64,000 nt of DNA. Origin: Pseudomonas putida W15Oct28 (GTDB lineage: Bacteria > Pseudomonadota > Gammaproteobacteria > Pseudomonadales > Pseudomonadaceae). Made by a program: the position numbers and the translations under genes. Under the pieces are notes generated by a model that was not told where the DNA came from, ran no database searches, and saw only the letters and a list, made by a program, of their open reading frames with translations. The stretch covers positions 62,001-126,000 of the forward strand of contig NZ_JENB01000019.1 in assembly GCF_000708715.2 (NCBI RefSeq). Reading direction: 5' to 3'. Shown piece after piece: positions 1-54,266 of the stretch (positions within the stretch are counted from its first letter, which is position 1; each line of letters opens with the position of its first letter).

Positions 1-581
1 CCCTCGAACACCTGGCTAAAACGCGGCACCACGTAGCCGAGCAGGAACAGCACCACGCCGCCACCTACCAGCAACAGCAGCAACGGGTAGACCGAGGCCC
101 CGACCAGCTTCTGCCGTACCAGGTCCAGGCGCTGGCGGTAGCTGATGTAGCGGGTGAGGGCGTCGCCCAGCGCACCGGTCCGTTCGCTGGACTGCACCAA
201 CGCCACATACAGCGGCGGGAATATCCGCGGTTGCTGGCCCAGGGCCTGGGACAGCGAACGGCCTTCGTACAGCTGGCGTACCAGCTCGGCCAGCACCTTG
301 CGTGTGGCAGATGCAGGGGCCTTTTCTGCCAGGCTCTCCAGTGCGTCGATCAGCGGCAGGCCGGCATTGAGCAGGGTCGACAGTTCCTGACTGAACAGCA
401 CCAGGTCGAATGCCGCTTCGCGTCGCCAAACCATGCCGCGCAAGGCGCCGCCGTTGCTGCGCAGGCTGAGTACGCGCAGGCCTTGGTCCTCGGCCTGGCG
501 GCGGGCCTGGTCAGCGTCCTCGGCGTCAATCTGCAACTGCACCACGCCCTGTCTGCCCAGGGCCTTGAGGCTGTAGCGCAT
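1..581 (-). CDS. gspF: Type II secretion inner-membrane platform protein GspF (partial, C-terminus outside window)
   Basis: This gene encodes the N-terminal 193 residues of a GspF/PilC-family protein, the polytopic inner-membrane platform that couples the GspE ATPase to pseudopilus assembly. The visible part starts MRYSLKALGRQG and contains the first T2SSF helical domain, with FSQELSTLLNAGLPLIDALE and LYEGRSLSQAL typical of the family. A membrane segment (VYPLLLLLVGGGVVLFLLGYV) lies near the window edge. The start at 581 is preceded by AAGGAG at 589-594, about 7 nt away, which overlaps the stop of gspG, so the two genes are translationally coupled. The rest of the gene lies beyond base 1. Family assignment is firm. 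Which of the Pseudomonas type II systems it belongs to cannot be told here. Confidence 0.9.
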   Translation of the reverse strand, partial: MRYSLKALGRQGVVQLQIDAEDADQARRQAEDQGLRVLSLRSNGGALRGMVWRREAAFDLVLFSQELSTLLNAGLPLIDALESLAEKAPASATRKVLAELVRQLYEGRSLSQALGQQPRIFPPLYVALVQSSERTGALGDALTRYISYRQRLDLVRQKLVGASVYPLLLLLVGGGVVLFLLGYVVPRFSQVFE

Positions 582-592
582 GGCCACTCTCC

Positions 593-1018
593 TTACTGCC
601 AGCTGGTAATTTCGGCGTTTTCCCCATCACCACCGGGCTGGCCGTCCTTGCCCATCGACAGCAGGTCGTATTCACCACCGTTTTCGCCAGGTTGCCGGTA
701 GATGTACGGGCGGCCCCACGGGTCCTGCGGCACGGCTTTTTGCAGGTACGGGCCGGTCCAGCGTGCCTCGCCATTGGGGGCGATTACCAAGGCCTGCAGG
801 CCTTGCTCGCTGTTGGGGTAGTGGCCGACTTCCAGGCGATACAAATCCAGCGCCTTGCTCAGCCCTTCTATCTGCGCCCGCGCCACCTTGGCTTCGGAGC
901 GACCGAGCTGGCTGAAGTACTTGGGCGCGACGATGCCGGCCAACAGGCCGAGCACCACCAGCACCACCAGGAGTTCGAGCAGGGTGAAGCCACGTTGCGG
1001 GTTGGTTCTGCGCTGCAT
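593..1018 (-). CDS. gspG: Type II secretion major pseudopilin GspG
   Basis: This encodes a 141-residue major pseudopilin, the subunit that polymerises into the periplasmic pseudopilus driving type II secretion. The N-terminus has the class III leader and prepilin-peptidase site G10/F11 followed by FTLLELLVVLVVLGLLAG, with Glu at mature position 5. The C-terminal part has the GspG-specific pattern NSEQGLQAL, DPWGRPYIY and DLLSMGKDGQPGGDG (calcium-site loop). An upstream in-frame extension exists, but the ATG at 1018 has GGAGGG 7 nt before it and gives the correct leader. It is the first gene seen of a minus-strand operon and is followed directly by gspF. GspG normally lies next to gspF or gspE/H, which supports the call. 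Confidence 0.95.
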   Translation of the reverse strand: MQRRTNPQRGFTLLELLVVLVVLGLLAGIVAPKYFSQLGRSEAKVARAQIEGLSKALDLYRLEVGHYPNSEQGLQALVIAPNGEARWTGPYLQKAVPQDPWGRPYIYRQPGENGGEYDLLSMGKDGQPGGDGENAEITSWQ

Positions 1019-1129
1019 GGTGAAGCCCTCCACTGCATGGGGACACGGGTTGACAGGCACCATGCAACAGCCGTGCACGTCTGCCTCGGGGCCTTGCGCC
1101 ATGCGGTACAGGAAGCGGCACAGTGCTTG

Positions 1130-1797: not shown

Positions 1798-1946
1798 GTG
1801 GCCGGGGTATGGCTGCCGCTCCTGCGGTGATTGGGTGAACTAAGTGAAAAAAGCGTTACCCTTCGGCGGATGCCATCAATTTAGCACTATGGTTTCCCCA
1901 GGTCTGGGCTATAACCTTCAGAAGGTGCCCAGCTGTGGAGTCCGCC

Positions 1947-3404
1947 ATGGACATCGCCCCTCGTTCCGACGCCATAGAAGTGCCTGCCGGTAACGAGCTG
2001 GCTGCCCCACGCAAGCCGTTCAACCTGCTGCGCTGGTATGCCTGGGTCAGCCTGGCCATCATCCTTTCGGTGGCTGCCGGACTGGGGCTGATTTCCAGCC
2101 GTTTCATCATCGATGAGAGCGTTGAGCGCGATGCCTTGCTGACCGCACAGTTCATCACCTCCATCGCCGACGCCGAAGTACGCCATGTGTCGATCCCCAA
2201 CGTGCGTACCATGGGCGAGCTGCTGGACCCGCGCACCGACCGCAGCAACCTGCCGGACGTCGACCCGGATGCCCGGCGCAAGGCCCGCGGCGAGTTTCTT
2301 GACCATATCGCCCACCTGCCAGACATGCTGCTGGCCAATATCTATGCCCCGGACCGTACGGTGATCTGGTCCAGCAACCCGGCGCTGATCGGCAAGCTGA
2401 TTGATAGCGACGATGACCTGGAACGGGCTTTCGAGTACAAGATGCGGGTCTCGGCCAGCTACCACAACTTCGAACAGGCCCGCGCCGAGCAGAAGTTTGT
2501 CACCCCGCCCGAGCAGCTGTTCATCGAAAACTACATTCCGCTGTTCGATGCCGATGGCGAGCACGTCACGGCGATGGTCGAGATCTATAAAGAGCCCCAT
2601 GACCTGATCGTGCGCATCGAGCATGGCCTGATACTGATCTGGCTGGCGATCACCGTCGGCGCCGCGCTGGTCTACGTCGGCCTGTACGGCATCATGCACC
2701 GCGCTGCGCGGTTGCTGGCGGTGCAGCAGAAGCGGCTGATCAACAACGAAACCTACGTGGCACTGGGTGAGGTGTCCTCGGCGGTAGCCCACAGCCTGCG
2801 CAACCCGCTGGCCAGTATCCGCTCCAGTGCCGAGCTGGCCCAGGCGTTCGACGAAGGCCCGGCGCAGCGCAATATCAATGACATCATCAGCCAGGTCGAC
2901 CGGATGTCGCAGTGGATCCGCCAGATGCTGCAGTCGCTGCGCCCACTGAACGATGAGGCGGTGGCGGTGGACTTGCCGCTGGCCTTGCAGGAAAGCCTGC
3001 AGAGCTACGCCGTGCAGTTGGCACGTGGCGGGGTGAGCCTGGACCTGCAACCGTTACCGGCGGTACAGGTATTGGGGCATCCGGCGTTACTGCGGCAGAT
3101 TTTCAGCAGCCTGATCGCCAATGCGCTGGAATCGATGGAGCAGGGCGGGCGGTTGCGTATCGAGGTGGTGCGCCATGACCGGCGCAGCCTGACCCTTCGC
3201 CTGTCCGACAATGGCAAGGGCATGAACGAGGAACAGCAGCGCATGGCCTTCCGGCCGTTCTTTACCACCAAGCAGGGTGGCTTGGGGGTGGGGCTGGTGC
3301 TGGTGAAACGCATCATGGAACGCTTCGGCGGCACCGTCAGGCTCAGCAGCAGTGAAGGCCATGGCACGCGGGTGTCGTTGAATTTTCGTCTGGCGTCGAC
3401 TTGA
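1947..3404 (+). CDS. Membrane sensor histidine kinase, first of a tandem pair
   Basis: A 485-residue HisKA/HATPase kinase. TM1 is near residues 30-50 and TM2 near 227-249, with a periplasmic sensing region of about 175 residues between them. The H-box reads EVSSAVAHSLRNPLASIRSS with phospho-acceptor H282. The ATP-binding domain shows NALES (N-box), DNGKGM (G1), FFTTKQGGLGVGL (F/G2) and an MERFGG end typical of NtrB-like kinases. The ATG at 1947 has GGAG 6 nt before it; a GTG at 1935 in the same frame is a weaker alternative. A close paralogue starts at 3683, followed by an NtrC-type regulator, so both kinases probably feed that regulator. The signal is unknown. Confidence 0.9.
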   Translation: MDIAPRSDAIEVPAGNELAAPRKPFNLLRWYAWVSLAIILSVAAGLGLISSRFIIDESVERDALLTAQFITSIADAEVRHVSIPNVRTMGELLDPRTDRSNLPDVDPDARRKARGEFLDHIAHLPDMLLANIYAPDRTVIWSSNPALIGKLIDSDDDLERAFEYKMRVSASYHNFEQARAEQKFVTPPEQLFIENYIPLFDADGEHVTAMVEIYKEPHDLIVRIEHGLILIWLAITVGAALVYVGLYGIMHRAARLLAVQQKRLINNETYVALGEVSSAVAHSLRNPLASIRSSAELAQAFDEGPAQRNINDIISQVDRMSQWIRQMLQSLRPLNDEAVAVDLPLALQESLQSYAVQLARGGVSLDLQPLPAVQVLGHPALLRQIFSSLIANALESMEQGGRLRIEVVRHDRRSLTLRLSDNGKGMNEEQQRMAFRPFFTTKQGGLGVGLVLVKRIMERFGGTVRLSSSEGHGTRVSLNFRLAST

Positions 3405-3460: not shown

Positions 3461-3462
3461 CT

Positions 3463-3477: not shown

Positions 3478-5171
3478 AAATGTGGGGCCTGTTCTTCAAG
3501 TCGAATTTAACAATGCTTCTTAAGTGACTGAAAAACAAGGCTTTAGAGTTTCTTGGTGTTGGCTGGCCAAGTTCTTGCTAAGTGATCTGTGGAGCGCAAC
3601 ACGCGACAAATGGCAGCTACGGCTGCCCAGGCGGGGTGCTATCAACTGGCTGCTGATGTTGTCGGCCTTGATGCATTTCTGAATGGACGCCCTGTGCGGG
3701 AACCACGCGATGCAGATGCTGGAAAACGAAGTTCGCGACAAGGCCAGTGCGACTGCCAGCGGTCTGGCCGTGCCATTGCGTGAGTTCAACCTGCTGCGCT
3801 GGTTTTCGGTCATCAGCCTGTTGATCATCACGGCGGTGGCGGGTGGGTTGGGTTATGTGTCCACGCGCTTCGTGGTACGCGATAGCGTACAGCGTGATGC
3901 CATGCTTACCGCGCAGTTCATCCAGGCCATGGCCCAGGCCGAGGTGCGCCATTCGCAATTGCCACCGGGCACCACCATGGGCGAACTGCTCGACCCGCGC
4001 CTGGACCAACAGCACCTGCAGTTCACCCCGGCGCTGGCCGAATCCACCCGGGTCGAATTTCTCGACCATGTCGAACACCTGCCTGATACCTTGCTGGCCA
4101 ATGTCTACGCGCGTGACCGCACCATCGTCTGGTCCACCAACGTCGAGCTGATCGGCAAACGGATAGAAGCCGATGGCGATCTGGATCGCGCCTTCCGCTC
4201 GCGCAAGGCGGTGTCGGCCAGCTACCACAAGGCCGAGGATGACCGCGAAGAACAGAAGTTTCTGCGTGAGCCGCGCTACCTGTTCATCGAGAACTACATT
4301 CCGCTGTTCGACAGCCAGGGCGAACAGGTAATGGCCATGGTGGAGATCTACAAGGAGCCGCAAGACCTGATACGGCGCATCCAGCGCGGCTACGTGCTGA
4401 TCTGGGCTTCGACCTTGGTGGGCGGGGCGCTGATCTACTTCGGGCTGTTCTGGATCGTGCGCCGGGCGGCGCAGATGCTGCACCTGCAACAGGACCGGCT
4501 GGTGGCCAGTGAAACCTACGTGGCGCTGGGCGAGATGTCGTCTGCAGTGGCGCACAGCCTGCGCAACCCGCTGGCCAACATCCGTTCCAGCGCCGAACTG
4601 GCCCAGGAAATCGCCAACCCCGCAGCGCAGAAGAACATCACCGACATCATCAGCCAGGTAGACCGCATGTCGCGCTGGGTGCGCGACCTGCTGGTGTCGT
4701 TGCGCCCGCTCAGCGACGAGGCCGAGGCGGTGGACCTGGTGGCGGCCATCGAGGACACCCACCTGGCGTTCGTCCAGCAGATCGAGCGCAACGGTGTGCG
4801 CTTTCATTTCGAAGGGCCTGATGAGCAGTGGGTGGCCAGCCAGCCGCTTCAGCTCACGCAAATTCTCAACAGCCTGTTCTCCAATGCCCTGGAGGCCATG
4901 CCGGCGGGCGGCATGCTGACTGCCCAGGTCAATGTACAGGACGGCCAACGTGCCGAGTTTGTACTCACCGACACCGGCAAAGGCATGAGCCAACAGCAGG
5001 AGCGGATGGTGTTCAAGCCGTTCTTTACTACCAAACAGGGTGGCCTCGGTGTAGGCCTGGCCCTGGTCAAGCGCATCATGGAACGTTTTGGCGGCTCGGT
5101 AAGCCTGAGCAGCCGCGAAGAGGAAGGAACCCGCGTCAGCCTTACATTCAATATCGCAGCGGGAGGGGACC

Positions 5172-6599
<1,428 letters not shown>

Positions 6600-6950: not shown

Positions 6951-6963
6951 GGCAGGCTCCTTT

Positions 6964-7006
6964 GCTTCGGGTAGGTCTGATACTTTCCTTCGGCCCTACC
7001 CAAAGC
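6964..7006 (-). promoter_or_regulatory. Stem-loop just upstream of the small exported protein gene
   Basis: A 12-bp arm GCTTCGGGTAGG (6964-6975) pairs with CCTACCCAAAGC (6995-7006) with 11 of 12 matches and a 19-nt loop. No T-run follows on the minus strand, so it is not a classic terminator. It ends 2-3 nt before the AAGGAG of the 6950 start codon, a position suited to influencing translation or stabilising the processed 5' end of the transcript. Confidence 0.4.
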
Positions 7007-7034
7007 ATCAAGGTGCCATTACCCCGATAAACGG

Positions 7035-8387
7035 TTACACCACCTGCGCCAACAACATGATGAAGATGATGCCAACCACCGAGAGGATGGTTTCCATCAT
7101 GCTCCAGGTCTTGAACGTTTCCGCTACGGTCATGTTGAAATACTGCTTCACCAGCCAGAAGCCGGCGTCGTTCACATGCGACAGGATCAACGAGCCAGCA
7201 CCGGTGGCCAGCACCAGCAGCTCACGGTTCACACCCGGTACCAGTTCGATTACCGGTGCAACAATACCTGCACCGGTAATGGTAGCGACCGTGGCAGAGC
7301 CAGTCGCGATGCGGATCACCGCTGCCACCAGCCAGGCCAGCATGATGGGCGAAATCTCGGCCTGCACGGCCATCTGCCCGATCACGTTGCCCACGCCGGT
7401 GTCCACCAGCATCTGCTTGAAGCCGCCGCCGGCACCCACGATCAGTACGATGGCTGCCGTGGGGGCCAGGCTCTGGTCCAGCATCTTCATGATCTGCTGG
7501 CGGTTGAAGCCGCGGGCCGAACCAAAGGTGTAGAAGGCCAGCAGCAGGGCCGCGAGCAGGGCGGTAATGGGGTGGCCGATCAGGTCCATCCACTGGCGCA
7601 CGATGTGCTCGGCCGGCAGCACTACGTCGGCGAAGGTTTTCAGCAACATCAACGCCACGGGTAGCAGCACGGTGATCAGGGTGATGCTGAAGCTTGGCAG
7701 GTTGCCCTGGTCGGACTCCTTGGCGATCTGGTCCATCAGCTCCTGGGACGGGTTGCCCGGGATGTAGCGGGAAATGAAGTTACCGAACAGAGGGCCCGCG
7801 ATGATCGCAGTGGGCAGTGCGACGATCAGGCCGTAGAAGATGGTCTTGCCGATATCAGCGTGGAAAATGCCGATCGCCAGCAGTGGGCCCGGGTGTGGCG
7901 GCACCAGGCCGTGCACCACCGACAGGCCGGCCAACAGCGGAATGCCGATCTTGACCAGTGATACCCCGGAGCGCCGCGCGACGATGAATACCAGCGGAAT
8001 CAGCAGCACGAAGCCGATCTCGAAGAACAGCGGAATGCCCACCAGGAAGGCGGCGAACATCATGGCCCAATGCACGTTCTTCTTGCCGAAGGCGCGGATG
8101 AGGGTTTGCGCGATCTGGTCGGCACCCCCAGAGTCGGCCATCAGCTTGCCTAGCATGGTACCCAGGGCGAGCACGATGCCGACGAAGCCGAGCACGCCGC
8201 CAAAGCCGTCCTGGAACGACTTCATTACCTTGGCCACCGGCATGCCGGAGGTCAGGCCAAGGAAGCCGGCCGCGAGGGTGAGGGCGACGAAGGGGTGCAC
8301 TTTGAAGTGGGTGATCAGCAGGATCAGCCCGACGATGGTAACCAGCGCGTCGAGCAGCAGGAAGGTATCAGTAGCCAGTCCGAACAT
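7035..8387 (-). CDS. gntP: Gluconate:H+ symporter GntP
   Basis: A 450-residue polytopic permease of the GntP family, close to the usual family length, with about 12 hydrophobic segments. Family-typical stretches include SGGADQIAQTLIRAFGKK, IPLFFEIGFVLLIP and GLVPPHPGPLLAIGIF. The protein imports D-gluconate across the inner membrane by proton symport. It lies directly downstream of gntK on the same strand. A GntR-type palindrome lies between them at 8459-8472, suggesting its own regulated promoter. The ATG at 8387 gives a normal N-terminus (MFGLATDTFLLLDAL). Confidence 0.93.
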   Translation of the reverse strand: MFGLATDTFLLLDALVTIVGLILLITHFKVHPFVALTLAAGFLGLTSGMPVAKVMKSFQDGFGGVLGFVGIVLALGTMLGKLMADSGGADQIAQTLIRAFGKKNVHWAMMFAAFLVGIPLFFEIGFVLLIPLVFIVARRSGVSLVKIGIPLLAGLSVVHGLVPPHPGPLLAIGIFHADIGKTIFYGLIVALPTAIIAGPLFGNFISRYIPGNPSQELMDQIAKESDQGNLPSFSITLITVLLPVALMLLKTFADVVLPAEHIVRQWMDLIGHPITALLAALLLAFYTFGSARGFNRQQIMKMLDQSLAPTAAIVLIVGAGGGFKQMLVDTGVGNVIGQMAVQAEISPIMLAWLVAAVIRIATGSATVATITGAGIVAPVIELVPGVNRELLVLATGAGSLILSHVNDAGFWLVKQYFNMTVAETFKTWSMMETILSVVGIIFIMLLAQVV

Positions 8388-8458
8388 GGTTTGAAGGCCT
8401 CGATCTTATCGTTGTTTTTGGCGTAGCACTTTGGAACTTTGCCCGCGTTTGCGGGTCG

Positions 8459-8472
8459 AGGTAGCGCTGTCT
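8459..8472. promoter_or_regulatory. GntR-type operator upstream of gntP
   Basis: The sequence AGGTAGCGCTGTCT has the AGCGCT core typical of LacI-family operators at 8463-8468. Its centre is about 78 nt upstream of the gntP start. Two more copies of the same core with similar flanks precede gntK and gntR, so GntR is the likely binder. Confidence 0.65.
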
Positions 8473-8498
8473 TTGGTGAGCCGGGAAAGCCGCCAGGG

Positions 8499-9038
8499 TC
8501 AGGCGGTTTGCGCCAGCCCCTGCTCACCGCAGCGCTTTAGCCAGCGGTCTACCGCTTCGGCGAGCGCTTCGATGGGCTGGGTGGCGTCCAGCGGCAGCGT
8601 GAGTGGTTCGCCACGTGGCGATTCCAGGGCAGCGAACTGGCTGTCGATGAGGCTGGCCGGCATGAAGTGCCCGGGGCGGGCCAGTACGCGTTTTTCCGCC
8701 TCGGCGGGCGACAGTTCGAGGAACACGAACACCAGGCCGGGCATGGCTTCACGCAGGGTGTCGCGGTAGCGGCGCTTGAGTGCCGAGCAGGTGAGGATCG
8801 GGCGCTCCCCAGCCTGGGTGGTGGCCTGCAACTCCTGGCCAAGGCGCACCAGCCAACCGGCTCGGTCGCTATCGTCCAGCGGGATGCCATCGCTCATCTT
8901 GCGGATGTTTTCGGCAGGGTGGAAAGCGTCGCCTTCGATCAGGCGGCCGCCGCTTCTGGCAGCGATGGCGGCGCCGATGCAGCTTTTGCCGCAACCGGCC
9001 ACGCCCATCACCACGATGGCGGACAGGGGAGAATTCAT
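8499..9038 (-). CDS. gntK: Gluconokinase GntK
   Basis: A 179-residue kinase that phosphorylates D-gluconate to 6-phosphogluconate, which enters the Entner-Doudoroff pathway. It has a P-loop GVAGCGKS at 12-19, the gluconokinase motifs EGDAFHPAENIRKMSDGIPL and DRAGWL, and CSALKRRYRDTLR, which is diagnostic of the family. Length matches E. coli GntK. The start at 9038 has AGGAGG about 7 nt upstream. It is cotranscribed or coordinately expressed with gntP, and a GntR operator sits only 19 nt upstream of the start codon. The divergent gene is the regulator gntR. Confidence 0.95.
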   Translation of the reverse strand: MNSPLSAIVVMGVAGCGKSCIGAAIAARSGGRLIEGDAFHPAENIRKMSDGIPLDDSDRAGWLVRLGQELQATTQAGERPILTCSALKRRYRDTLREAMPGLVFVFLELSPAEAEKRVLARPGHFMPASLIDSQFAALESPRGEPLTLPLDATQPIEALAEAVDRWLKRCGEQGLAQTA

Positions 9039-9056
9039 CAGTACCTCCTGCGGGGT

Positions 9057-9072
9057 GAGATAGCGCTGTCTC
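9057..9072. promoter_or_regulatory. GntR-type operator upstream of gntK
   Basis: GAGATAGCGCTGTCTC is a 16-bp palindrome with 7 of 8 half-site matches, centred on AGCGCT. It lies 19 nt before the gntK start codon, where a bound repressor would block transcription initiation or early elongation. Confidence 0.72.
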
Positions 9073-9185
9073 GTCGCCGACGAACAGCCACCTCCCCGGT
9101 GTTATTGGTCTTGTGCTTACGCAGTATGGACGCTTGGTAGCGAGCGCGTGCTGGCTGCTGCCAAAGATTACATTGCCTGCGTCCT

Positions 9186-9200
9186 GAGACAGCGCTACCT
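9186..9200. promoter_or_regulatory. GntR-type operator upstream of gntR
   Basis: GAGACAGCGCTACCT shares the AGCGCT core and flanks of the two sites before gntK and gntP. It lies 46 nt upstream of the gntR start, consistent with autoregulation and with shared control of the divergent promoters. Confidence 0.68.
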
Positions 9201-9245
9201 TAGTGGCCGTTCCCTATCCTTGCAAGTAGTAAAATTACAACATCC

Positions 9246-10265
9246 ATGTCCCGCACCGGCTCCCGTACTACAGGTCGTCCCACCCTGGCCGAAGTTGCCA
9301 GACTTTCCGGGGTTTCCCCGATTACCGCCTCGCGCGCCCTGCGCGGGGTCAGCACGGTCGCGCCTGAACTGGTCGAAAAGGTCGTCGCTGCAGCGGCGAG
9401 CCTGGGCTACGTGGCCAACCCGGCGGCCCGCGCCCTGGCCTCGGCCCGCAGCCAGTCGGTGGTGGTGTTGATCCCGTCGTTGTCCAACCAATTGTTCATC
9501 GACACGTTGGAAGCCATTCACGAGGTCATGCGCCCGCGTGGGCTCGAAGTGCTGATCGGCAACTACCACTACGACCTTGCCGAAGAAGAGAACCTGATCC
9601 GCAATTACCTGGCCTACCAGCCCTGCGGCATGCTGTTGACCGGTTTCGAGCGCAGCGACGCGGCGCGGCAGATGCTGGCCGCCAGCGGTGTGCCGTGTGT
9701 GCACATGATGGAACTCAATGGCGAGCCAGGGGCATTGTCGGTCGGTTTTTCGCAGCAGCAGGCGGGGCGCGCCGCGGCCAGGCACTTGATCGAACGCGGG
9801 CGCAAACGCCTGGCGTTCATCGCTGCGCAGCTCGACCCACGGGTGATGCAGCGGGCCGAAGGTTTCCGCCAGGCGTTGGCCGAGGCCGGTTTGCAGGCGG
9901 CCGAGCTGGAGGTGCTGGCACCAGAGCCTTCGTCGATTGCCTTGGGCAGTGTGCTGTTCAGCCAGTTGCTGCAGCAGGCGCCGGATGTCGACGGTATCTT
10001 CTTTTGCAACGACGACCTGGCCCAGGGGGCGGTGCTGCAGGCATTGCGCCAAGGGGTGGAAGTGCCACGCCAGGTGGCCATGGTGGGGTTCAATGACTTG
10101 CCGGCGTCGGCACACATGGTGCCGCGCCTGACCTCGATTCGCACGCCCCGGGCCGCCGTTGGGCGTGGCGCAGCGCAGGCGCTGCTGGCGTTGCTCGATG
10201 GCAAGCGGGTGGCGAATACGCAGCAGGATCTGGGCTTTGAGCTGATGGTGCGCGAGAGTTCGTAA
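9246..10265 (+). CDS. gntR: LacI-family gluconate regulator GntR
   Basis: A 339-residue LacI-family repressor. The N-terminal helix-turn-helix and hinge occupy about residues 13-65 (PTLAEVARLSGVSPITASRA and a hinge helix NPAARALASARS). A periplasmic-binding-protein-like effector domain fills the rest, with GLEVLIGNYHYD and FFCNDDLAQGA typical of the gluconate subgroup. It is divergent from gntK and gntP. Three AGCGCT-centred palindromes mark the likely operon targets. The expected effector is gluconate or 6-phosphogluconate, relieving repression. The start has no strong Shine-Dalgarno, but the N-terminus aligns with family members. Confidence 0.92.
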   Translation: MSRTGSRTTGRPTLAEVARLSGVSPITASRALRGVSTVAPELVEKVVAAAASLGYVANPAARALASARSQSVVVLIPSLSNQLFIDTLEAIHEVMRPRGLEVLIGNYHYDLAEEENLIRNYLAYQPCGMLLTGFERSDAARQMLAASGVPCVHMMELNGEPGALSVGFSQQQAGRAAARHLIERGRKRLAFIAAQLDPRVMQRAEGFRQALAEAGLQAAELEVLAPEPSSIALGSVLFSQLLQQAPDVDGIFFCNDDLAQGAVLQALRQGVEVPRQVAMVGFNDLPASAHMVPRLTSIRTPRAAVGRGAAQALLALLDGKRVANTQQDLGFELMVRESS

Positions 10266-10394
10266 CGAGAGCTCGTAGCTGTGCAGGAGCGTTCTGTCAC
10301 ATCAATGTAGTAATCCTAAAGTGATAGCACTGTGCTTGCACGGCGCCAACGGCGATCTATGCTCAGGACACCGCGCATAAAGGAGCCCGGCGTC

Positions 10395-11714
10395 ATGTTC
10401 GATTTCCATCGCAAATCCGATTTGGTTGAGATCCAGCGCAGTCACCAGGCCTTGAGCAGCACGCAAGCCAAATTGGCGGCGATCAGCCGTTCGATGGCGA
10501 TGATCGAGTTCGCCCCTGATGGCACCATCCTCGATGCCAACGAGCGTTTCTGCCAGGCCATGGGCTACAGCGCCGACGAGCTGCGGGGCAAGCACCACCG
10601 GCTGTTCTGCGAGCCGGGCTATGCGAAAAGTGCCGAGTACCAGCAGCTGTGGCGTGAACTGGGCCAGGGCAAGGCCATCAGTGGTACGTTCGAACGCCTC
10701 GACAAGGCCGGCCGCGAGGTTTGGCTGGAGGCCAGCTACATGCCGGTGCTGGACGAACAGCGCCAGGTTACCAGCGTGATCAAGGTGGCAGCCGACATCA
10801 GTCAGCGGGTCGTGCAGGAGCACGAAAGCGAGAGCCTGCTCAAGGCCATCGGCCGCTCCATGGCGGTGATCGAGTTCACCCCGCAAGGCCGGGTGATCAA
10901 GGCCAACCAGAACTTCCTCGACACCATGGGCTATCGCCTGGACGAGGTAGTTGGCCGCCATCATGGGTTGTTTTGCCTGCCGCAAGAGCGCGAATCGGCC
11001 GAGTACCGTGAGTTCTGGGCCTCGCTCAACCGCGGCGAGTACCATTCGCACCGCTTCGAGCGCATCCACAAGCAGGGCCAGATGGTGTATCTGGAGGCCT
11101 CCTACAACCCGATATTCGACAGCAAGGGCCGCCTGTGCAAAGTGGTGAAGTTCGCCAGTGACATCACCCGCCAGGTCAGCACCCAGCAAACCGCCGCCGA
11201 CGCCGCCCATGCCAGCTCCATGCAGACCGATGCCTGCGCGCGCAAGGGTACCGAGGTGGTGCAGCAGACGGTGCAGGTGATCGAGCAGATATCCCAGGAG
11301 CTGAACGACGCTGCACGCAGCATCGATGCCGTGAGCAAGCAGTCGGATGTGATCGGGCAGATCGTGCTGACCATACGTGGCATTGCCGACCAGACCAACC
11401 TGTTGGCCCTGAACGCGGCCATCGAGGCGGCTCGCGCCGGTGATCACGGGCGCGGTTTTGCCGTGGTGGCCGACGAGGTCCGCAACCTGGCTGCGCGGAC
11501 CAGCAAGGCAACCTTGGAAATTGTCGATGTCGTGCGGCAGAACCACGACCTGTCACTGCTGGCCGTGGCCAGCATGCAGTCGAGTTTGACCCGCACCGGT
11601 CATGGGGTTGCGCTGGCCAATGAGGCCGGTACGGTGATCATGGAAATCCAGCAGGGTTCACGGCACGTGGTGGATGCCATCAGCCAGATCAGCTCGACGC
11701 TTCAACTGCATTGA
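10395..11714 (+). CDS. Soluble two-PAS methyl-accepting chemoreceptor, BdlA-like
   Basis: A 439-residue protein with two consecutive PAS domains (about 30-137 and 152-259) and an MCP signalling domain (about 275-439). The conserved tip includes [22 protein letters not shown]-type sequence. No transmembrane segment is present. This layout and length match BdlA of P. aeruginosa, which couples redox or c-di-GMP cues to biofilm dispersion, and similar aerotaxis-type receptors. The ATG at 10395 follows AAGGAG at about 9 nt; an upstream in-frame ATG at 10332 lacks one. The 3' end overlaps the convergent hybrid kinase gene by 26 nt. The descending arm of the signalling hairpin is short, so the protein may be a tail-shortened variant. 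Confidence 0.82.
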
Positions 11715-47489: not shown

Positions 47490-47530
47490 AAAAAGGAACC
47501 GCGGCACCAGGGAGAGGAGCACCGCGGTTC
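47490..47530 (-). terminator. Intrinsic terminator of the curli operon
   Basis: On the minus strand, GAACCGCGG pairs with CCGCGGTTC (9 bp perfect; 47496-47504 with 47522-47530), followed by CTTTTTC. It starts 14 nt after the csgA stop. Confidence 0.85.
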
Positions 47531-47543
47531 AAGGGGGAACGGT

Positions 47544-48989
47544 TTACTTCTGGGTCACAGTGGCCAGGTTCGTGCTGCCCAGCTGGGTAATGGTGGCGGT
47601 TTGGGCGATACCGCTCTGGTCGACGAACGCCTTGTTGCCCTGGCCTCCCTGGGTCACGTAGGCGACGTTGATGCTGTCAGTCTGTTTGATGGTGGCTTCG
47701 TTGCCGCTACCGTACAGCTGGTTGGTGTAGCTCTGGTTGCTGTAGCCGGACTGGTCCAGGGTGATGGAGTTGCCGGTGCCCTGGCTGCTGCCGTAGGCAT
47801 AGTTGTCGGTACCGCGCTGGTCGGCGATCAGGATGTTGTCGGTGCCGTTCTGCTCGAAATACAGCTCGTTGTTGACGTCGTCCTGCTTGGTCTGCATCTG
47901 GTTGCCTTTACCCGTCTGGCTAAGCGTGGCCACTTGGTCAGCGCCTTTCTGGGTCAGGTTGACGCCGTTGCCATTGCCGTTCTGGTTGATGGTGGCGTTC
48001 TGGTTGGTGCCGAACTGGCCACCCATCTTGGCGCCTTTCCAGTTGCTGGCAGTGATGCTGTTGCCATTGCCTTTGGTGTTGATGGTCAGGTTCAGGTTTT
48101 CACCATTCTGATAGGTGAAAAACAGGTTGTTGTTGCCCGTCTGGGTGATGGTGGCGGTCGCGTTGCTGGTATCGAACTGGTCTGACCAACTGGCGTTGGC
48201 ATTGCCTTGCTGCGAAAGGCTGACCTTGTTGCCGGCGCCGAAGCTCTGGTCGATATAGCCTTCGTTCGACTGGCCGCTCTGGACCACGGAGGCCTGGCTG
48301 CCGACCTGGGTGTCCTGCCACACTTCCACCGAGTTGCCGCCACCGTACTGGCCAATGCCAATGGTGCCACCGGTACCCTCGCGCTGGTCGCCGTAGGCCC
48401 AGTTGTCGTGGCCATCCTGGTAGACCTGGATGTCGCCATCGAGGTGGTTCAAGTGCTCGGCGGCGGCGTAGTTGTCCTGGCCGGTCTGGTTCACGGTACT
48501 GCGGTTGTTGGTGCCACCGAAGGTCTGCTCGATGAAGGCCTCGTTGCGCTGGCCGGATTGCCAGGTGGTGGCTTTGCTGCCTTCCTGGGTGTCCTGCCAC
48601 ACGGTGGATTTGTTGCCGACGCCTTGCTGGGTTTGCAGCGATTCGTTGTTCTGCCCTACAGACTGGCTGGCGAAGGCATCGTTATAGCTGCCCCCGGCAC
48701 GCTGGGTGATCTTGCTGCCGTTCTCGAACAGTTGCTCGGCGTAGCCGGCGTTGTACTGGCCGGTGGCACTTTGCTGGATTTCGCTGGTGCTTTCGGTTTG
48801 CACCGCCATATGGTTGTGGCCCTTGCCCGTCTGGTTCTGGGTGGCCGAGGCGAAGGATGCCTGGGTCTGGGAGACTTCGGCGATGTTTTCCTTGCCGTCC
48901 TGGGTCTGGGACGAGGTGCTGTCAGCAGCCATGGCCTGACCTGCGAGGGCCAGGACGATAGCGGCACTTAAGGGAGCGAGCTTGTACAT
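47544..48989 (-). CDS. csgA: Long CsgA-type curli subunit with about twenty curlin repeats
   Basis: A 481-residue exported amyloid subunit, about three times the length of E. coli CsgA. A signal peptide (MYKLAPLSAAIVLALAGQAMA) precedes a Gln/Asn/Gly-rich region of roughly twenty curlin-like repeats of about 22 residues. Typical examples are ATITQTGNNN, VNLTQKGADQ and SITLDQSGYSN. Many repeats pair as QxGxxN with Asn/Gln ladders. GGAGG precedes the ATG at 48989; the frame runs on upstream to 49040. The terminator lies 14 nt after its stop. It should polymerise into extracellular fibres templated by the CsgB gene product 17 nt upstream. Confidence 0.9.
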   Translation of the reverse strand: MYKLAPLSAAIVLALAGQAMAADSTSSQTQDGKENIAEVSQTQASFASATQNQTGKGHNHMAVQTESTSEIQQSATGQYNAGYAEQLFENGSKITQRAGGSYNDAFASQSVGQNNESLQTQQGVGNKSTVWQDTQEGSKATTWQSGQRNEAFIEQTFGGTNNRSTVNQTGQDNYAAAEHLNHLDGDIQVYQDGHDNWAYGDQREGTGGTIGIGQYGGGNSVEVWQDTQVGSQASVVQSGQSNEGYIDQSFGAGNKVSLSQQGNANASWSDQFDTSNATATITQTGNNNLFFTYQNGENLNLTINTKGNGNSITASNWKGAKMGGQFGTNQNATINQNGNGNGVNLTQKGADQVATLSQTGKGNQMQTKQDDVNNELYFEQNGTDNILIADQRGTDNYAYGSSQGTGNSITLDQSGYSNQSYTNQLYGSGNEATIKQTDSINVAYVTQGGQGNKAFVDQSGIAQTATITQLGSTNLATVTQK

Positions 48990-49005
48990 GGTGGTGCCTC
49001 CAGGT

Positions 49006-49479
49006 CTATCGATATTGGGTGATCTGAACATGCTGGCCATTGCCGGTCTGGGTCACGGAGCTGTTGAGGCCCGAGCCGGACTGCACGATGCTGGCGCTGT
49101 TGTCGTTGCCGATCTGCTCGATGGCTGCGCTGTTGCTGCTGCCGCTCTGGCGAATCGACGCGCTGTTGCCATTTCCCTGTTGGCTGATGCTGGCCATCAG
49201 GTCACTGCCTTCCTGCAAGATGTACGCTTCCTGCGCACCGCCAGACTGGACGATGCGGCCCAGCAGGGCCTGACCGTTCTGGTCGAGGGCGGCGCGGTTG
49301 CCCGACCCCTGCTGCTCGATCACCGCGGCCTGGCCGGCACCGACCGGTAGCAGGCGGATGATCACCGGTTCGCCGAGGTCGTTGCCGGGCGCGAGGTCGG
49401 CATTGTCCATCAGGTCGTCGGCCCAGCTGGCCTGGCCCGCCAGGGCCAGGCTGAGTAGCAGTGGATACAGGCGCTTCAT
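49006..49479 (-). CDS. csgB: CsgB-type curli nucleator
   Basis: A 157-residue exported protein with a signal peptide (MKRLYPLLLSLALAGQASWA) and about five curlin repeats (AAVIEQQGSGNRAALDQNG, MASISQQGNGNSASIRQSG and so on). It is close to E. coli CsgB in length, and ends NGQHVQITQYR, a CsgB-like basic and polar tail. It should nucleate CsgA polymerisation at the cell surface. It precedes csgA by 17 nt and follows the large Ig-like protein gene by 15 nt. Confidence 0.88.
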   Translation of the reverse strand: MKRLYPLLLSLALAGQASWADDLMDNADLAPGNDLGEPVIIRLLPVGAGQAAVIEQQGSGNRAALDQNGQALLGRIVQSGGAQEAYILQEGSDLMASISQQGNGNSASIRQSGSSNSAAIEQIGNDNSASIVQSGSGLNSSVTQTGNGQHVQITQYR

Positions 49480-49494
49480 GGTGTTACCCCGTCT

Positions 49495-51726
49495 TTACTG
49501 CACAACCACGTTGACGGTACGGGTAGTCCCCGGGCTGGTGGTAATGGTTGCCGTCGGCGCGGCGGTCGGGATGATCGTGGTGCTGTTGCTTACTGCGAGG
49601 CGCCAGCGGCCGTTCACCGGTACGGTGGCGGTGCCCAGTGTCTGCACCCCGGTGGTGGTGGTAACCCGGACGGTGACAACGTTGCCCGTGGTTACCGACG
49701 AGGTACCGCTGATGTCCCAGTTGTAACGGTTGTTGGAGCGTGCCGTGACGGTGGCTGCCGTAACCGCGAAGGTTTCGGCGGCGGGCCGTGGCGACACGTT
49801 GACGGTGACCGTACCCGGGGTAGACAGCGCCCCCAGCGAGTCACGTGCCTGGTAGGTGAAAGTGGTGGTGAACGCCGCCGTTACCGTGGCCGGTGGGGTA
49901 TAGGTCACGGTGGCGCCGTCGGTGCTGACCGCGCCCCGGCCGGCAGCCGGTTGGCCGACGGCAGCAACGGCCAGCGGCACGTTGCCTTCCGGATCGGTGT
50001 CGTTGGCCAGCACGTTGATGGTCAATGGCACGCCCAGGGTGGCGACGGTTTCCGGGTTGGCGACCGGTGGCCGGTTAGGCGCCACGTTGATGGTGACCGT
50101 GGCCGGTTCCGACTTCAGGCCCTTGGCGTCCACCGCCCGGTAGCTGAAGGTGGCCACCAACGGTTGCGTAGCGCCGACTGGCGGGGTGTAGGTGACCGAG
50201 GTGGTACCGTTGAGCACCACACCGCCCAGGCCGGTACCCGGTTGGGTGAGGTCACTGAGGGTCAGCGGCACGTTGCCGTCCGGGTCACTGTCGTTTTGCA
50301 GCAGGTTGAGGGTGATTGGCACACCCACACTGGTGCTGCCGACATCGGCCTGGGCCAGCGGTGGCTGGTTGGCCGCCTCGACAGGTGCGTTGCCGACCAC
50401 CAGGACCGGTTCCACGTCAGTACCACCATGGGCAGACTTGACCGTGACGGTGGCCGGCGGTTGCGCCACGTCGTTGACCGTGATGCTTTGCAGCGTGCCC
50501 GCTTTGGACATGCGGCCGTAGCCTTGGGCGAGCATGTCGGGGATAGCCACCTCGTCACTGGACCTTGCCTCGATCAGCAGGCGCTTGTTGGCCCAGTCGT
50601 AGCGCGCGGTGCTGACCTTGACCACGTCGGTCAGCTTGCTCGACAGCGCGGTCGGCTGGGTGCCGCCGGCACTGTTGCTGGCCGTGACCACCACTACCGC
50701 AGGTGGCGCTGTCTGGCCAAGCTGTTGGTGGAAGAACAGGCCGTTGTTGTCTGCCGTCAGGTTGAACTGGCAGGGCGAAGGGGGCGTGCCGATCAGTGCC
50801 AGGCCGTTGCGCATGCACAGGCTGGCCTCTTTCGGCGCCTTGGCGAACACTTCCACGCGGGTGCCGCTGCCGTTGCGCGAGTAGGTGGCGCGCTCCAGGG
50901 TGACCGGGGTTTGTGCGCGCTGGTCGAGTACCTTGCCCGAAACCGTGAACAGCGCGGTCTCGATGCGCCCGGGCGGGCCGTCGATGCGGATGAAGTTGGT
51001 GTTGAACGGGCTGCCGACCACGGCCTCCAGGCGGTTCGGGTCACCAATGAAGGTTTCGCTGGCGCCGGTATCCGGGTTGACCTCGACATACGGCCCACCC
51101 ACCCCACGCAGCCATGGCCCGAGCGCGCCGTTGAGCGCGCCCCGGAAGTTGCCGGGTGCGCCGATGCCGATGTCGCGGGTGATGTTGATCGCCCGCCGGC
51201 CGGGCGTGGTGACGTTGACCGTCTCGACGCCGAAGGGGTGGGTGATGGTGTAGACACCCGCCCGCGGGACCGACACGCGAAGCCGGATGCGGGCGAAGCT
51301 CTGCTGGTCGCCGTCTACCGGGTTTTCGGCGGCAAAAGCCGCTTCCAGGCCAGCGACGTAGGCATCCAGTTCATAGCCGCTGTTACCGACGGCAGGGATG
51401 GTGGCTTCGGCCAGGAACCAGAACATTTCTGGCGGCCAGTTGTCGGGGAACACCAGCGGCAGGGCGTCGTCGTAGATGCCGGGTTCCGGCAGCAAGGTGC
51501 ACATGTAGGACGGTGCGGCCGGGGTGCCGGGCACCCGGGTACTGGTGGCACGTGACTGGCACAGCTCCAGGGACTGGTTGAGGCCGTCCTTGTACCACAT
51601 CGGGTAGCCGCCAGTGGCGAAGGTGTAGGGCCCCGGGTCGACATCAGACAACGCGGCAAAGGCGGCGCTGGTAACGGTGAGGGAAAAACCGGCGGCGAAC
51701 AGCGCACGGCGCGACCAAGTGTTCAT
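49495..51726 (-). CDS. Large exported protein of the curli operon with two cadherin/Ig-like repeats
   Basis: A 743-residue protein with a signal peptide (cleavage after AAFA). The N-terminal about 430 residues are clearly related to the whole of the neighbouring 51759 product (DPGPYTFATGGYPMWYKDG; YMCTLLPEPG; VFPDNWPPEMFWF; RRAINITRDIGIG; GSPFNTNFIRIDGP). Two tandem Big_9/cadherin-like repeats follow (NQPPLAQADVG and RPPVANPETVA starts, each with NDxDPxGNVPL), then a C-terminal beta-rich domain. AAGGAGG precedes ATG 51726. It lies between its paralogue and csgB in one operon. I do not recognise the N-terminal domain. A surface adhesin or curli-anchoring role is inferred. Confidence 0.85.
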   Translation of the reverse strand: MNTWSRRALFAAGFSLTVTSAAFAALSDVDPGPYTFATGGYPMWYKDGLNQSLELCQSRATSTRVPGTPAAPSYMCTLLPEPGIYDDALPLVFPDNWPPEMFWFLAEATIPAVGNSGYELDAYVAGLEAAFAAENPVDGDQQSFARIRLRVSVPRAGVYTITHPFGVETVNVTTPGRRAINITRDIGIGAPGNFRGALNGALGPWLRGVGGPYVEVNPDTGASETFIGDPNRLEAVVGSPFNTNFIRIDGPPGRIETALFTVSGKVLDQRAQTPVTLERATYSRNGSGTRVEVFAKAPKEASLCMRNGLALIGTPPSPCQFNLTADNNGLFFHQQLGQTAPPAVVVVTASNSAGGTQPTALSSKLTDVVKVSTARYDWANKRLLIEARSSDEVAIPDMLAQGYGRMSKAGTLQSITVNDVAQPPATVTVKSAHGGTDVEPVLVVGNAPVEAANQPPLAQADVGSTSVGVPITLNLLQNDSDPDGNVPLTLSDLTQPGTGLGGVVLNGTTSVTYTPPVGATQPLVATFSYRAVDAKGLKSEPATVTINVAPNRPPVANPETVATLGVPLTINVLANDTDPEGNVPLAVAAVGQPAAGRGAVSTDGATVTYTPPATVTAAFTTTFTYQARDSLGALSTPGTVTVNVSPRPAAETFAVTAATVTARSNNRYNWDISGTSSVTTGNVVTVRVTTTTGVQTLGTATVPVNGRWRLAVSNSTTIIPTAAPTATITTSPGTTRTVNVVVQ

Positions 51727-51758
51727 GCGGCCTCCTTGAAGGCTGAGCCTTTGTCTGT

Positions 51759-53087
51759 TCATGGCACCAGCACCACGTCTTCGCTGTCGCTACCCCCATT
51801 GGCGCTGGTGACCTGCACCTTGGCCGGCGGGATGGGCGACAGGGTCATGCTGAGCGTCTTCACGGCGCCGGTGCCGCCAAGGTTGCCGATCAACGTGCCG
51901 TTGCCGGTATGTGCGGTAAGCACGGGCGGGGTGGTTTCGTCGCTGGTGCTGGCCACCAGGGTCAGCTCGCCGGTGGACAGGCGGTACTGGGCCTGGGTGA
52001 TGGTGACCAGGTCAGTCAGTGGCACGTTGCGGGTGGTCAGGCTGCTGGTCGGGATGGCCACGCTGTTGTCGGCGGTCAGTGTCACGATGGTACCGGCCGC
52101 CGGGTTGAGGGCCGACTGGGCGTACCAGGCGCCGGTGGCGTTGGCCTCGGTCAGTTTCAGGTTGGGCGTCTGGCTGGTCAGGGTGACGCTGGCCGGTGGC
52201 GGCGGGGCCATCACGAAGATGTCTTGCTGGGCGCGCAGGTCGCCGTTCTCGGTGTGCCGTGAGTAGGTGCTGCGCTGTGGCATCAGCGGGGTAGGCAGGG
52301 CAACGGTCGAGAGCTTGCCCGAGATTGCGAACAGCTCGGTGCGCAGGTCGATGCCACCCGGGCCTTCGATGCGCACGAAGTTGGTATTGAACGGGCTGCC
52401 GGTTACCCGTTCGTCCAGGTTGGGGTCACCGACGAAGCGCTCGTTGCCTTCGGTGTAGGGGCCGTTGACACTGCGCAGGAACGGCCCGACATCGCCCTTC
52501 AGCGCGCCGGTGAAGTCGCCTGCCCCGGCAATGCCGATGTCGCGGGTCATGTTGATCGCCCTACGCCCTGCGGCGGGGACATCGAACACTTCCACGCCAT
52601 AGGGGTGGGTGACCACGTAGGTGCCCGCGGTGGGTACATCGACCCGGATACGCACCCGGGCGAAGCTGACCTGGTCACCCTCGACCGGTTCTTCGGCGGC
52701 GAATGCTGCTTCGATCGCCGTGCCGTAACTGAGGTTGATGCCACGGGCGGCGTCGACGATGGCGGCGTCGGCGGTGAACCAGAACGCTTCGTCAGGGAAG
52801 TTGGTGGGGAAGACGATGGGTTGGGTATCGTCGAACACACCGGGCGTGGGCAGCAGCGTGCACATGTACGACGGTGCGCCGGGCGCGCCGGCAACCCTGG
52901 AGCTGACCGCCTTGGTCAGGCACAGGTCGAGGGTACGACCGTGACTGTCCTGGTACCAGGCGGGGAAGCCGCCGTTGGCGGGGACGTAGGCGCCTGGATC
53001 GACAGCATTCAAGGCAGCCTGCGCCGGGAGCTGGAGCATGCCGGCGAAAATCGCCACTGCCAGCGGGTGGGGTATCGGTCGGTGCAT
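51759..53087 (-). CDS. Exported protein of the curli operon, paralogue of the larger neighbour's N-terminal half
   Basis: A 442-residue exported protein (signal peptide MHRPIPHPLAVAIFAGMLQLPAQA). It is collinear with the first part of the 743-residue neighbour: DPGAYVPANGGFPAWYQDS, YMCTLLPTPGVFDD, VFPTNFPDEAFWF, RRAINMTRDIGIAGAGDF and GSPFNTNFVRIEGP are all shared. It lacks the Ig-like repeats. Paired cysteines (LDLCL and YMCTLLP) suggest a disulfide. It is first in the operon, with GGAGGA before ATG 53087. Domain family not recognised; the tandem arrangement with curli subunits suggests a role in fibre assembly or attachment. Confidence 0.82.
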   Translation of the reverse strand: MHRPIPHPLAVAIFAGMLQLPAQAALNAVDPGAYVPANGGFPAWYQDSHGRTLDLCLTKAVSSRVAGAPGAPSYMCTLLPTPGVFDDTQPIVFPTNFPDEAFWFTADAAIVDAARGINLSYGTAIEAAFAAEEPVEGDQVSFARVRIRVDVPTAGTYVVTHPYGVEVFDVPAAGRRAINMTRDIGIAGAGDFTGALKGDVGPFLRSVNGPYTEGNERFVGDPNLDERVTGSPFNTNFVRIEGPGGIDLRTELFAISGKLSTVALPTPLMPQRSTYSRHTENGDLRAQQDIFVMAPPPPASVTLTSQTPNLKLTEANATGAWYAQSALNPAAGTIVTLTADNSVAIPTSSLTTRNVPLTDLVTITQAQYRLSTGELTLVASTSDETTPPVLTAHTGNGTLIGNLGGTGAVKTLSMTLSPIPPAKVQVTSANGGSDSEDVVLVP

Positions 53088-53354
53088 GAGTCAATTCCTC
53101 CTGCAAACGGGCCCATGGACTTGGGGCGTCTGGGAGAAGATCGGCAAGAGCTGTGCCAAAATTTGAAAATTGCGCTGCAGGCCTTGTGGCGCAGGGGGTA
53201 CAGGTTTTCAGTGGGGGATTGTGCGAGCGGCTGACGGTGGGCAGCGTTGCCCCAAGGTTGGGGATTGGGGGCAGTAATTCCAACCCGGTTTTCGAAGCCA
53301 ATGCGGTTTTTGCTACATTGCACCGGCGTTCCCACCTTCCAGCTGAGCCAAGCT

Positions 53355-54266
53355 ATGCAACCCCTCGACCACCTCTCCCTGAACCTGTTCATTGTCGTCT
53401 GCGAAGAAGGCACTATCGCCCGCGCCGGTGAGCGCGCGTTCATGGCGCCGTCCGCGGTCAGCAAACGTGTTTCGGACATCGAGGCGCGTTTTGGCACCGC
53501 TTTGCTAAAACGCAGCAAGCGCGGCGTGGAACCGACCCCGGCAGGGCTGGCCCTGTTGCGCCATGCCCGGGACATGACCCGCGCCATGGAGCGCCTGGAC
53601 AGCGAGCTGAGCGAATACGCAGAGGGCGCGCGCGGCCATGTGCGGGTGCTGGCCAATGTGTCGTCGATCATGGAGTTCCTGCCTGAAGAGCTGTCGGCGT
53701 TCATGCTGGAAAACCCGCTGATCCAAGCCGATATCGAAGAACGCTTCAGCACCGACGTGGTCCGCGGTGTGGCCGAGGGCAGCGCCGATCTGGGCATTTG
53801 CCGAAAATCCATGGCAGTGGGTGACCTGGAGTTCGTGCCGTACCGCCAGGACCACCTGGCCGTAGTCGTCGCTGCTGACCATCCATTGGCCGGCCGCAGC
53901 CAGATTGCCTTCGAGGAAACCCTGGGCTACGACCATCTGGGCCTCTCGGCCTTTGCCACGCTGAACGCCTTCATGCGTAAAAGCGCCGAACAGGCAGGCA
54001 AGGAGCTGCGTTTTCGTTCGTACGTGTCGTCGTTCGACGCGGCATACCGCCTGGTACAGTTTGGCCTTGGCCTGGCGGTATTCCCGCAAGAGGCCGTGGC
54101 CCGCTATGCGGCGTTGTTCGACCTGCGAGTCATCCCGCTGACGGACGACTGGGCGCTTGGCGAATTCGTCATCTGCATGCGCGACCGGCACACGCTGTCG
54201 CTGTCGGCACGGCGCCTGCTTGACCACCTGCTGCTGCGTGCACCAGCCTGGCAGGTAGTCGGCTGA
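53355..54266 (+). CDS. LysR-family transcriptional regulator
   Basis: A 303-residue LTTR (LNLFIVVCEEGTIARAGERAF; PSAVSKRVSDIEARFGTALLKR) with a substrate-binding domain (HVRVLANVSSIMEFLP, LGLAVFPQEAVARY). It is divergent from the curli operon (267-nt gap) and lies upstream of the HMG-CoA-lyase operon, so either could be its target. The ATG at 53355 is chosen by family N-terminus; the frame is open to 53247. Confidence 0.9.
   Translation: MQPLDHLSLNLFIVVCEEGTIARAGERAFMAPSAVSKRVSDIEARFGTALLKRSKRGVEPTPAGLALLRHARDMTRAMERLDSELSEYAEGARGHVRVLANVSSIMEFLPEELSAFMLENPLIQADIEERFSTDVVRGVAEGSADLGICRKSMAVGDLEFVPYRQDHLAVVVAADHPLAGRSQIAFEETLGYDHLGLSAFATLNAFMRKSAEQAGKELRFRSYVSSFDAAYRLVQFGLGLAVFPQEAVARYAALFDLRVIPLTDDWALGEFVICMRDRHTLSLSARRLLDHLLLRAPAWQVVG

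Follow-up and report, generated by a model that had tools for sequence, protein, structure and literature searches.

Why bacteria deposit manganese (Mn) oxide extracellularly, and how they do so, has long been an open question. For strain GB-1, a Gsp-related (Xcm) pathway is reported to be necessary for the Mn-oxidising factor to be secreted, and the study in question, de Vrind et al. 2003, reportedly also describes pseudopilin genes that adjoin csgEFG homologues, together with a separate GspG/GspF pair. Here, we analyse a stretch of 64,000 nt from Pseudomonas putida W15Oct28 (positions 62,001 to 126,000 of contig NZ_JENB01000019.1; hereafter the window) that carries a four-gene operon for two exported proteins, called P1 and P2 in the following, a CsgB-type and a CsgA-type curlin. 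We consider it rather probable that this operon provides the surface scaffold within the Mn-oxidation system of Pseudomonas that is centred on MnxG.

Several elements of this picture are already known, i.e., the two curli clusters of P. putida, the genes mnxG, mcoA and mnxSR, and the Xcm pathway. In its accessible sections, PMC3056050 describes the curli genes of P. putida as two clusters and, alone among the papers searched, also mentions mnxG, which is not joined to curli there. The excerpts of PMC3521004 cover curli organisation in Pseudomonadales, and in those of PMC4509608 a search baited with the GB-1 and KT2440 Xcm cluster uncovers a second type II system of strain WCS358. The curlin operon goes unmentioned in the available portions of the Mn-oxidation literature: the term 'curli' occurs zero times in those of PMC11409713, PMC8218464 and PMC9765421, and 'csg' zero times in those of PMC8218464, PMC9765421 and PMC11930936. 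Neither P1 and P2 nor the link between curlin operon and mnxG nor their common promoter was found in the literature searched, with subscription papers mostly outside its reach.

Co-occurrence was assessed in the same 199 Pseudomonas genomes throughout, which show matches to P1 (61 genomes), MnxG (59) and CsgE (66). P1 and MnxG are found together in 59 genomes, P1 alone in two and MnxG alone in none, while 138 genomes have neither. When CsgE matches are split by score after the fact, the type of our own genome coincides exactly with MnxG (59 genomes with both, none with only one of them, 140 with neither), and the 7 genomes with the weaker-scoring CsgE type alone have neither P1 nor MnxG. P1 and MnxG lie on one contig in 42/59 genomes and within 40 kb of each other in 36 of these 42. 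Linkage alone is an incomplete account of their co-occurrence, since 6 genomes keep both at a distance of 107-604 kb and 17, including our own, on different contigs.

For a comparison of gene order we used the best 80 of 222 P1 relatives, all from Pseudomonas. P1, P2, CsgB and CsgA are encoded in this order and on one strand in 80/80 loci, i.e., more than chance would give. The first-pass annotation, made from the window alone, had stated that its reading would be refuted if the pair were absent from the csgAB loci of related genomes, and this refutation did not come about. The flanks are informative as well. An MnxS1 orthologue (>600 bits) is encoded in the upstream flank beside P1 in 37/80 loci, a count that leaves out 16 further loci with only a distant sigma-54 regulator (164-179 bits), and 29 of these 37 loci also carry a multicopper oxidase gene in that flank, usually with SCO, MnxS2 and MnxR behind. 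In 25/80 loci, the flank that was fetched includes csgG on the other strand. Genome G128 holds operon, regulator, secretion and mnxG genes as a single whole island: an mcoA-like gene for a multicopper oxidase and mnxS1 precede P1-P2-csgB-csgA, after which the facing strand carries csgG, csgF, csgE, pseudopilins, secretin, PilP-O-N-M, GspE, a regulator, peptidyl-prolyl isomerase (PPIase), PBP, two SCO genes, the propeller gene and mnxG, followed by GspG and GspF. In our window, a trio of two kinases and a sigma-54 regulator at 1935-6599 has the same layout as mnxS1-mnxS2-mnxR; we use these names on the basis of layout and domains and regard the trio as putative MnxS1, MnxS2 and MnxR.

The absence of csgE, csgF and csgG, which the first-pass annotation had pointed out, holds for the window but not for the organism: a genome-wide search finds one match each, all on contig C6, and the idea that the genome lacks csgEFG was therefore rejected. 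The three are the last of 19 same-strand genes that start at mnxG. The order is MnxG, a beta-propeller protein, two SCO proteins, a cytochrome c/binding protein, a SurA-type isomerase and a response regulator, then a GspE-type ATPase, an unassigned protein in the place of PilM/GspL, PilN and PilO, and finally a small protein in the place of PilP/GspC, a secretin, three pseudopilin-like proteins, CsgE, CsgF and CsgG. At 16 of the 18 junctions between mnxG and csgG, neighbouring genes overlap or are separated by no more than 34 nt; the remaining two gaps measure 61 and 249 nt. The first protein is assigned to MnxG by the NCBIfam equivalog NF041487 (3889.8 bits, cut-off 3100). The first six genes match the order of the six-gene mnxG operon of GB-1 as tabulated in the accessible part of PMC11409713.

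With secretin, ATPase, PilN/PilO-type assembly proteins and pseudopilins, the string carries parts of a type II secretion-like (Xcm) machine; the N-methylation motif was matched in 2/3 of the pseudopilin-like proteins, and one of the three has no Pfam match. A GspF platform protein was not among them, i.e., PF00482 has no match on contig C6. Its 8 matches in the genome are on C4, C8, C19 and C38. The GspF cut by the window edge, on C19, is a candidate for the absent part of the csgEFG-linked secretion machine, and GspG-GspF homologues are found upstream of mnxG in G128. We take the window-edge GspG/GspF pair to be what is named xcmS/xcmT1.

The operon also has its promoter architecture in common with mnxG. 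A first sigma-54 pattern matched 40/77 P1 loci, two of them at odd distances (3/80 loci were dropped for short upstream sequence), and was relaxed after these misses; the site is then present in 76/79 loci (1/80 dropped), with 0.005 expected per search interval, and absent from L078, L082 and L084. It is also present in 40/40 fetched mnxG upstream regions, which represent 40 of 62 MnxG matches. Above it lies a palindrome that was spotted by eye and tested afterwards. Its looser form, C4-N5/6-G4 at 60-140 nt above the sigma-54 site, is found in 61/72 P1 loci and 29/40 mnxG upstream regions compared to less than 1% of shuffled stretches, while the stricter CCCCAA-N1-4-TGGG occurs in 70/75 P1 loci vs. 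13/40 mnxG upstream regions. For both scans 5/80 loci were dropped for short upstream sequence, and the looser count also omits the 3 loci without sigma-54 site. The palindrome is likely an activator (enhancer) site, and MnxR may be the protein that binds it. It also falls within the first codons of the longest open reading frame of a LysR-type regulator gene (window 53247-54266) that is divergent from P1, so that the true start of that gene is probably further in.

The joint pattern of sigma-54 site and palindrome occurs at exactly two sites in the 6.3-Mb own genome, before mnxG and before P1, and the reversed pattern at none. Among the 199 genomes we obtained 88 joint matches, of which 41 are at P1, 37 at mnxG (one G089 site being counted twice) and 10 elsewhere, three of the latter near mnxG. 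The pattern is found in 59/61 P1 genomes vs. 3/138 others, with 0/7 among the genomes with only the other CsgE type; built from the P1 and mnxG promoters, it tests exclusiveness and is not an independent discovery. No sigma-70-type promoter was found for the operon with the consensus used, and no sigma-54 site precedes the response-regulator gene that heads the C6 secretion genes. The accessible text of PMC11930936 gives IHF/sigma-54 predictions for the mnxG and mcoA promoters of GB-1, which are Mn-induced in stationary phase, and that of PMC11409713 an rpoN::Tn5 mutant of Pseudomonas sp. MS-1 without Mn oxidation. In three genomes (G190 C1:3071889-3071991, G127 C54:15501-15603 and G025 C16:119539-119641), joint matches lie downstream of the mnxG match, at a distance of about 1.4-1.6 kb and on the same strand; these may reflect an inner promoter or another gene order.

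The compared genomes show that the operon co-occurs almost perfectly with mnxG and the CsgE string and has a rare promoter in common with mnxG; in many species, the regulator genes and a further multicopper oxidase gene are located next to it. Judged from sequence, the operon almost certainly belongs to the Mn-oxidation system, and it is very likely that operon and mnxG are regulated together.

The operon itself covers 47544-53087 on the minus strand, and its description in the first-pass annotation was borne out by our analysis in several respects. The open reading frame list of the window gives four genes on one strand. Setting the starts of P2 and CsgA at Met13 (51726) and Met18 (48989) of their longest open reading frames, which is our choice, and using 53087 for P1 and 49479 for CsgB, the intergenic gaps are the 32, 15 and 16 nt claimed. 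A strong terminator follows csgA, and CsgA is unusually long, with 14 strict matches of the curlin motif. A terminator consensus scan did not list this terminator, probably because its loop of 9 nt exceeds the scan's maximum of 8. The NCBIfam CsgB model matches the product of the CsgB-type gene with a score under the model's cut-off. Within the whole genome, curlin repeats are confined to csgB and csgA, and the P1 domain to P1 and P2.

Table 1. Position, strand and basis of assignment of the features discussed (window coordinates).
Feature	Position	Strand	Basis and remarks
P1	51759..53087	-	exported, 442 aa; all-beta domain without Pfam/NCBIfam family; AlphaFold2 pLDDT 80.4
P2	49495..51726	-	exported P1 paralogue; two Big_9/cadherin-like repeats and C-terminal beta domain
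CsgB-type minor curlin	49006..49479	-	157 aa; PF07012 1.1e-24
CsgA-type major curlin	47544..48989	-	481 aa; PF07012 2.5e-32
Intrinsic terminator after csgA	47496..47530	-	13-bp stem, -21.5 kcal/mol, z -4.48, then CUUUUU
Sigma-54 (-24/-12) promoter site	53144..53158	-	71 nt before P1
Palindrome CCCCAACCTTGGGG	53250..53263	-	105 nt above sigma-54 site; likely activator (enhancer) site
Sensor kinase, MnxS1 layout	1935..3404	+	HisKA and HATPase_c; orthologues adjoin P1 in other species
Sensor kinase, MnxS2 layout	3683..5203	+	domains; orthologues in P1 flanks of other species
Response regulator, MnxR layout	5172..6599	+	sigma-54 activation domain and Fis-type helix-turn-helix
GspF-type inner-membrane platform protein	1..587	-	cut by window edge; 398 aa in genome
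GspG-type major pseudopilin, partner of GspF	593..1024	-	T2SSG 1e-42

P1 and P2 had been described as unrecognised, paralogous exported proteins that belong with the curlins, and this description stands; the accompanying guess of an anchoring or presenting role at a fibre may hold as well. They have a domain of roughly 430 residues in common (44% identity over 450 columns), and P2 carries in addition the two Ig/cadherin-like repeats noted before, which are its Pfam matches (Big_9/cadherin-like). The profile search that had been suggested for the shared domain yields no known family, i.e., P1 has no family at E <= 1 in Pfam and NCBIfam, and the corresponding part of P2 has no match in either; the domain is new to these two libraries. 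Cys56 and Cys76 (P1 numbering) are invariant in an alignment of 35 P1/P2 domains and remain so after adding three distant relatives, and this invariance suggests a disulphide in both proteins. The AlphaFold2 model of P1 is all-beta with a predicted local distance difference test (pLDDT) score of 80.4 and a predicted template modelling (pTM) score of 0.71. Its structure matches are mostly to residues 263-442 and of Ig/FN3 type (Z up to 8.6), and a PDB sequence search with P1 gave no convincing match (best E 0.45). Fold searches returned partial matches alone, mostly of Ig/FN3/adhesin type, with P1 up to about residue 260 barely covered. For P2, the C-terminal half matches adhesin repeat domains with Z 10-11, mostly across single domains, and the model is poor in the N-terminal domain (mean pLDDT 66).

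Outside Pseudomonas, the P1 domain looks rare. A P1 profile matched the own genome alone among 398 Pseudomonadota genomes, where at most 4 candidates were scored per genome such that weak relatives may escape. A plasmid search with P1 returned 3 records (Skermanella, Indioceanicola and Arthrobacter, 31-39% identity), and using two of these relatives as queries added one further match, which is a cadherin-repeat match in Shinella. In Skermanella, the P1-like gene immediately follows genes for a multicopper oxidase and an SCO protein; in Arthrobacter, it is flanked by multicopper oxidase genes on both sides, and an Nramp transporter as well as a metal-dependent regulator are encoded nearby. No curlin was found near the distant P1-like genes within the 16.6-24.9 kb examined. 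The position of two of the three relatives beside oxidases (n=3, without random control) would fit a partnership of P1 with multicopper oxidases that is older than the curli link. The Arthrobacter sp. FW305-BF8 plasmid (L120, 1-50000) shows a metal-handling region that also includes P-type ATPase and arsenate genes.

The close connection of the pair to csgAB, as proposed in the first-pass annotation, was seen in 80/80 loci but not for three further pairs. Genomes G021 and G163 have no curlin genes beside P1-P2, and neither CsgE nor MnxG has a match in these genomes. In G167, a second P1-P2 pair and a second MnxG are arranged divergently (L100, C113:1-19999; 127-10418), and the fetched 20 kb contain no curlin; judging by this arrangement P1-P2 can accompany an oxidase without a fibre. 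Because these three pairs have no curlins beside them, the P1-P2 pair is not simply a part of curli. A role of P1 and P2 as general curli parts was also rejected, given that P1 is absent from the 7 genomes whose sole CsgE is of the other type. On the other side, a second MnxG of G087 and its beta-propeller gene diverge from curli genes that include this other CsgE and have no P1 (L101, C4:268001-288000), which is another MnxG adjoining curli genes. Extra csgE-F-G-B-A sets were seen in G042 (L105, C24:27001-46000) and G060 (L106, C4:808001-826000); their CsgE is mid-scoring (about 150 bits to our own), and no MnxG was found in the 18-19 kb fetched.

The following steps could connect these parts. 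In stationary-phase cells exposed to Mn(II), mnxG and the operon would be switched on together by the MnxS/MnxR pathway. CsgB and CsgA would exit unfolded via CsgG and form the amyloid fibre. P1 and P2, being folded and probably disulphide-bearing and thus presumably too bulky for CsgG, would instead cross the outer membrane via the type II-like machine encoded beside csgEFG; we give this export route slightly less than an even chance. On the surface, they would attach MnxG, the growing Mn oxide or both to the fibre, which are the jobs we infer for P1 and P2, and the fibre would act as scaffold for mineral or enzyme, a role about which we are nearly evenly divided, with a lean towards doubt. 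Taken as a whole, the picture would be that of a curli amyloid dedicated to biomineralisation: a Mn-responsive regulon builds oxidase, secretion machine and fibre together, P1/P2 link the fibre to the oxidase or to nascent Mn oxide, and the cell thereby supplies the template for mineral growth. We put this forward tentatively, as somewhat less probable than not. If true, the curlin fibre and two new exported proteins would be missing surface parts of a well-studied oxidase, the position of csgEFG behind mnxG and a secretion machine would be explained, and curli would serve a use beyond ordinary biofilm adhesion. The two-element promoter could then be used as a tool for finding the regulon.

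A number of observations weigh against assigning the operon to the Mn-oxidation system as its surface scaffold. P1-P2 persists in G021 and G163 in the absence of MnxG, the sigma-54/palindrome elements are lacking at the second P1-P2/MnxG pair of G167, and the second MnxG of G087 and of G151 has no P1 in the fetched 20 and 12 kb, respectively. For Indioceanicola, no multicopper-oxidase signature was found in 24.9 kb, with a signature that also missed annotated oxidases in L097. In G049 (L109, 7386-13212), P1, P2 and CsgA look broken into several frames or pieces, next to apparently intact genes for MnxG, CsgEFG and secretion; on this sequence, the operon can apparently be lost without loss of the oxidase, whose gene can survive longer than those of the scaffold. 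The states of G021, G163 and G049 look like decay. With regard to the promoter, 20/61 P1 genomes have no joint match at P1, two of the P1 genomes (G042 and G174) have none at all, and both patterns were shaped after seeing the data, as was the score-based split of the CsgE types, where the CsgE of G137 is a fragment match. Finally, the Fisher value for P1 and MnxG (8.7e-49) ignores phylogeny such that related species lead to an overstatement of the independent evidence.

Other explanations account for parts of the same data. P1 and P2 might be accessory subunits or chaperones of MnxG, with the curli fibre as a merely co-transcribed biofilm matrix; the Bacillus Mn oxidase, with its small partners MnxE/MnxF, offers a comparison. 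The curlin-free second pair next to an MnxG in G167 is what one would expect of such subunits, as is the position of 2/3 distant P1-like genes beside multicopper oxidases with no curlin in the stretches examined. Yet csgB-csgA directly follow P1-P2 in all compared loci, and CsgE of the own type is found in exactly the MnxG genomes, so the fibre tracks the oxidase too, and we regard this explanation as unlikely. We assign an equally small chance to a co-regulated matrix that embeds the cells in, or shields them from, the Mn oxide crust and that is not needed for enzyme placement. It would go along with a common promoter that coexists with tolerance of the apparently broken P1/P2/CsgA in G049, and with the adhesin-type Ig/cadherin repeats of P2, but not with the distant P1-like genes next to multicopper oxidases, where no curlin was found.

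The fibre-adhesin idea of the first-pass annotation, in which common biofilm curli are accompanied by two adhesive accessory proteins, would require that the link to Mn oxidation is due to hitch-hiking neighbours. While the short P1-MnxG distances (within 40 kb in 36/42 single-contig genomes) are in accordance with this, six genomes keep both genes at 107-604 kb, the promoter common to both operons occurs nowhere else in the own genome, and the 7 genomes that have only the other CsgE type are without P1. We consider this explanation very improbable. The surface-scaffold reading is the one we prefer, and it can be set against the known systems as follows.

Like the curli of E. coli (type VIII secretion, csgBAC-csgDEFG), the system described here has curlin repeats in CsgA and CsgB and CsgE, CsgF and CsgG once each. 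Unlike there, csgEFG are located behind mnxG and secretin/pseudopilin genes, P1/P2 are placed ahead of csgB, the operon has a sigma-54/palindrome promoter in common with mnxG, and CsgA is about three times as long as its E. coli counterpart. The pseudopilins beside csgEFG and the separate GspG/GspF pair that the study of the Xcm pathway reportedly described are both present here; that study is not known to have dealt with P1/P2, with the csgBA operon and its promoter, or with their co-occurrence with mnxG. The MnxG system of GB-1 (mnxG operon, mcoA, mnxS1/S2/R) finally reappears with its MnxG equivalog and its six-gene order, and a trio of two kinases and a sigma-54 regulator fits mnxS1/S2/R in domains and layout.

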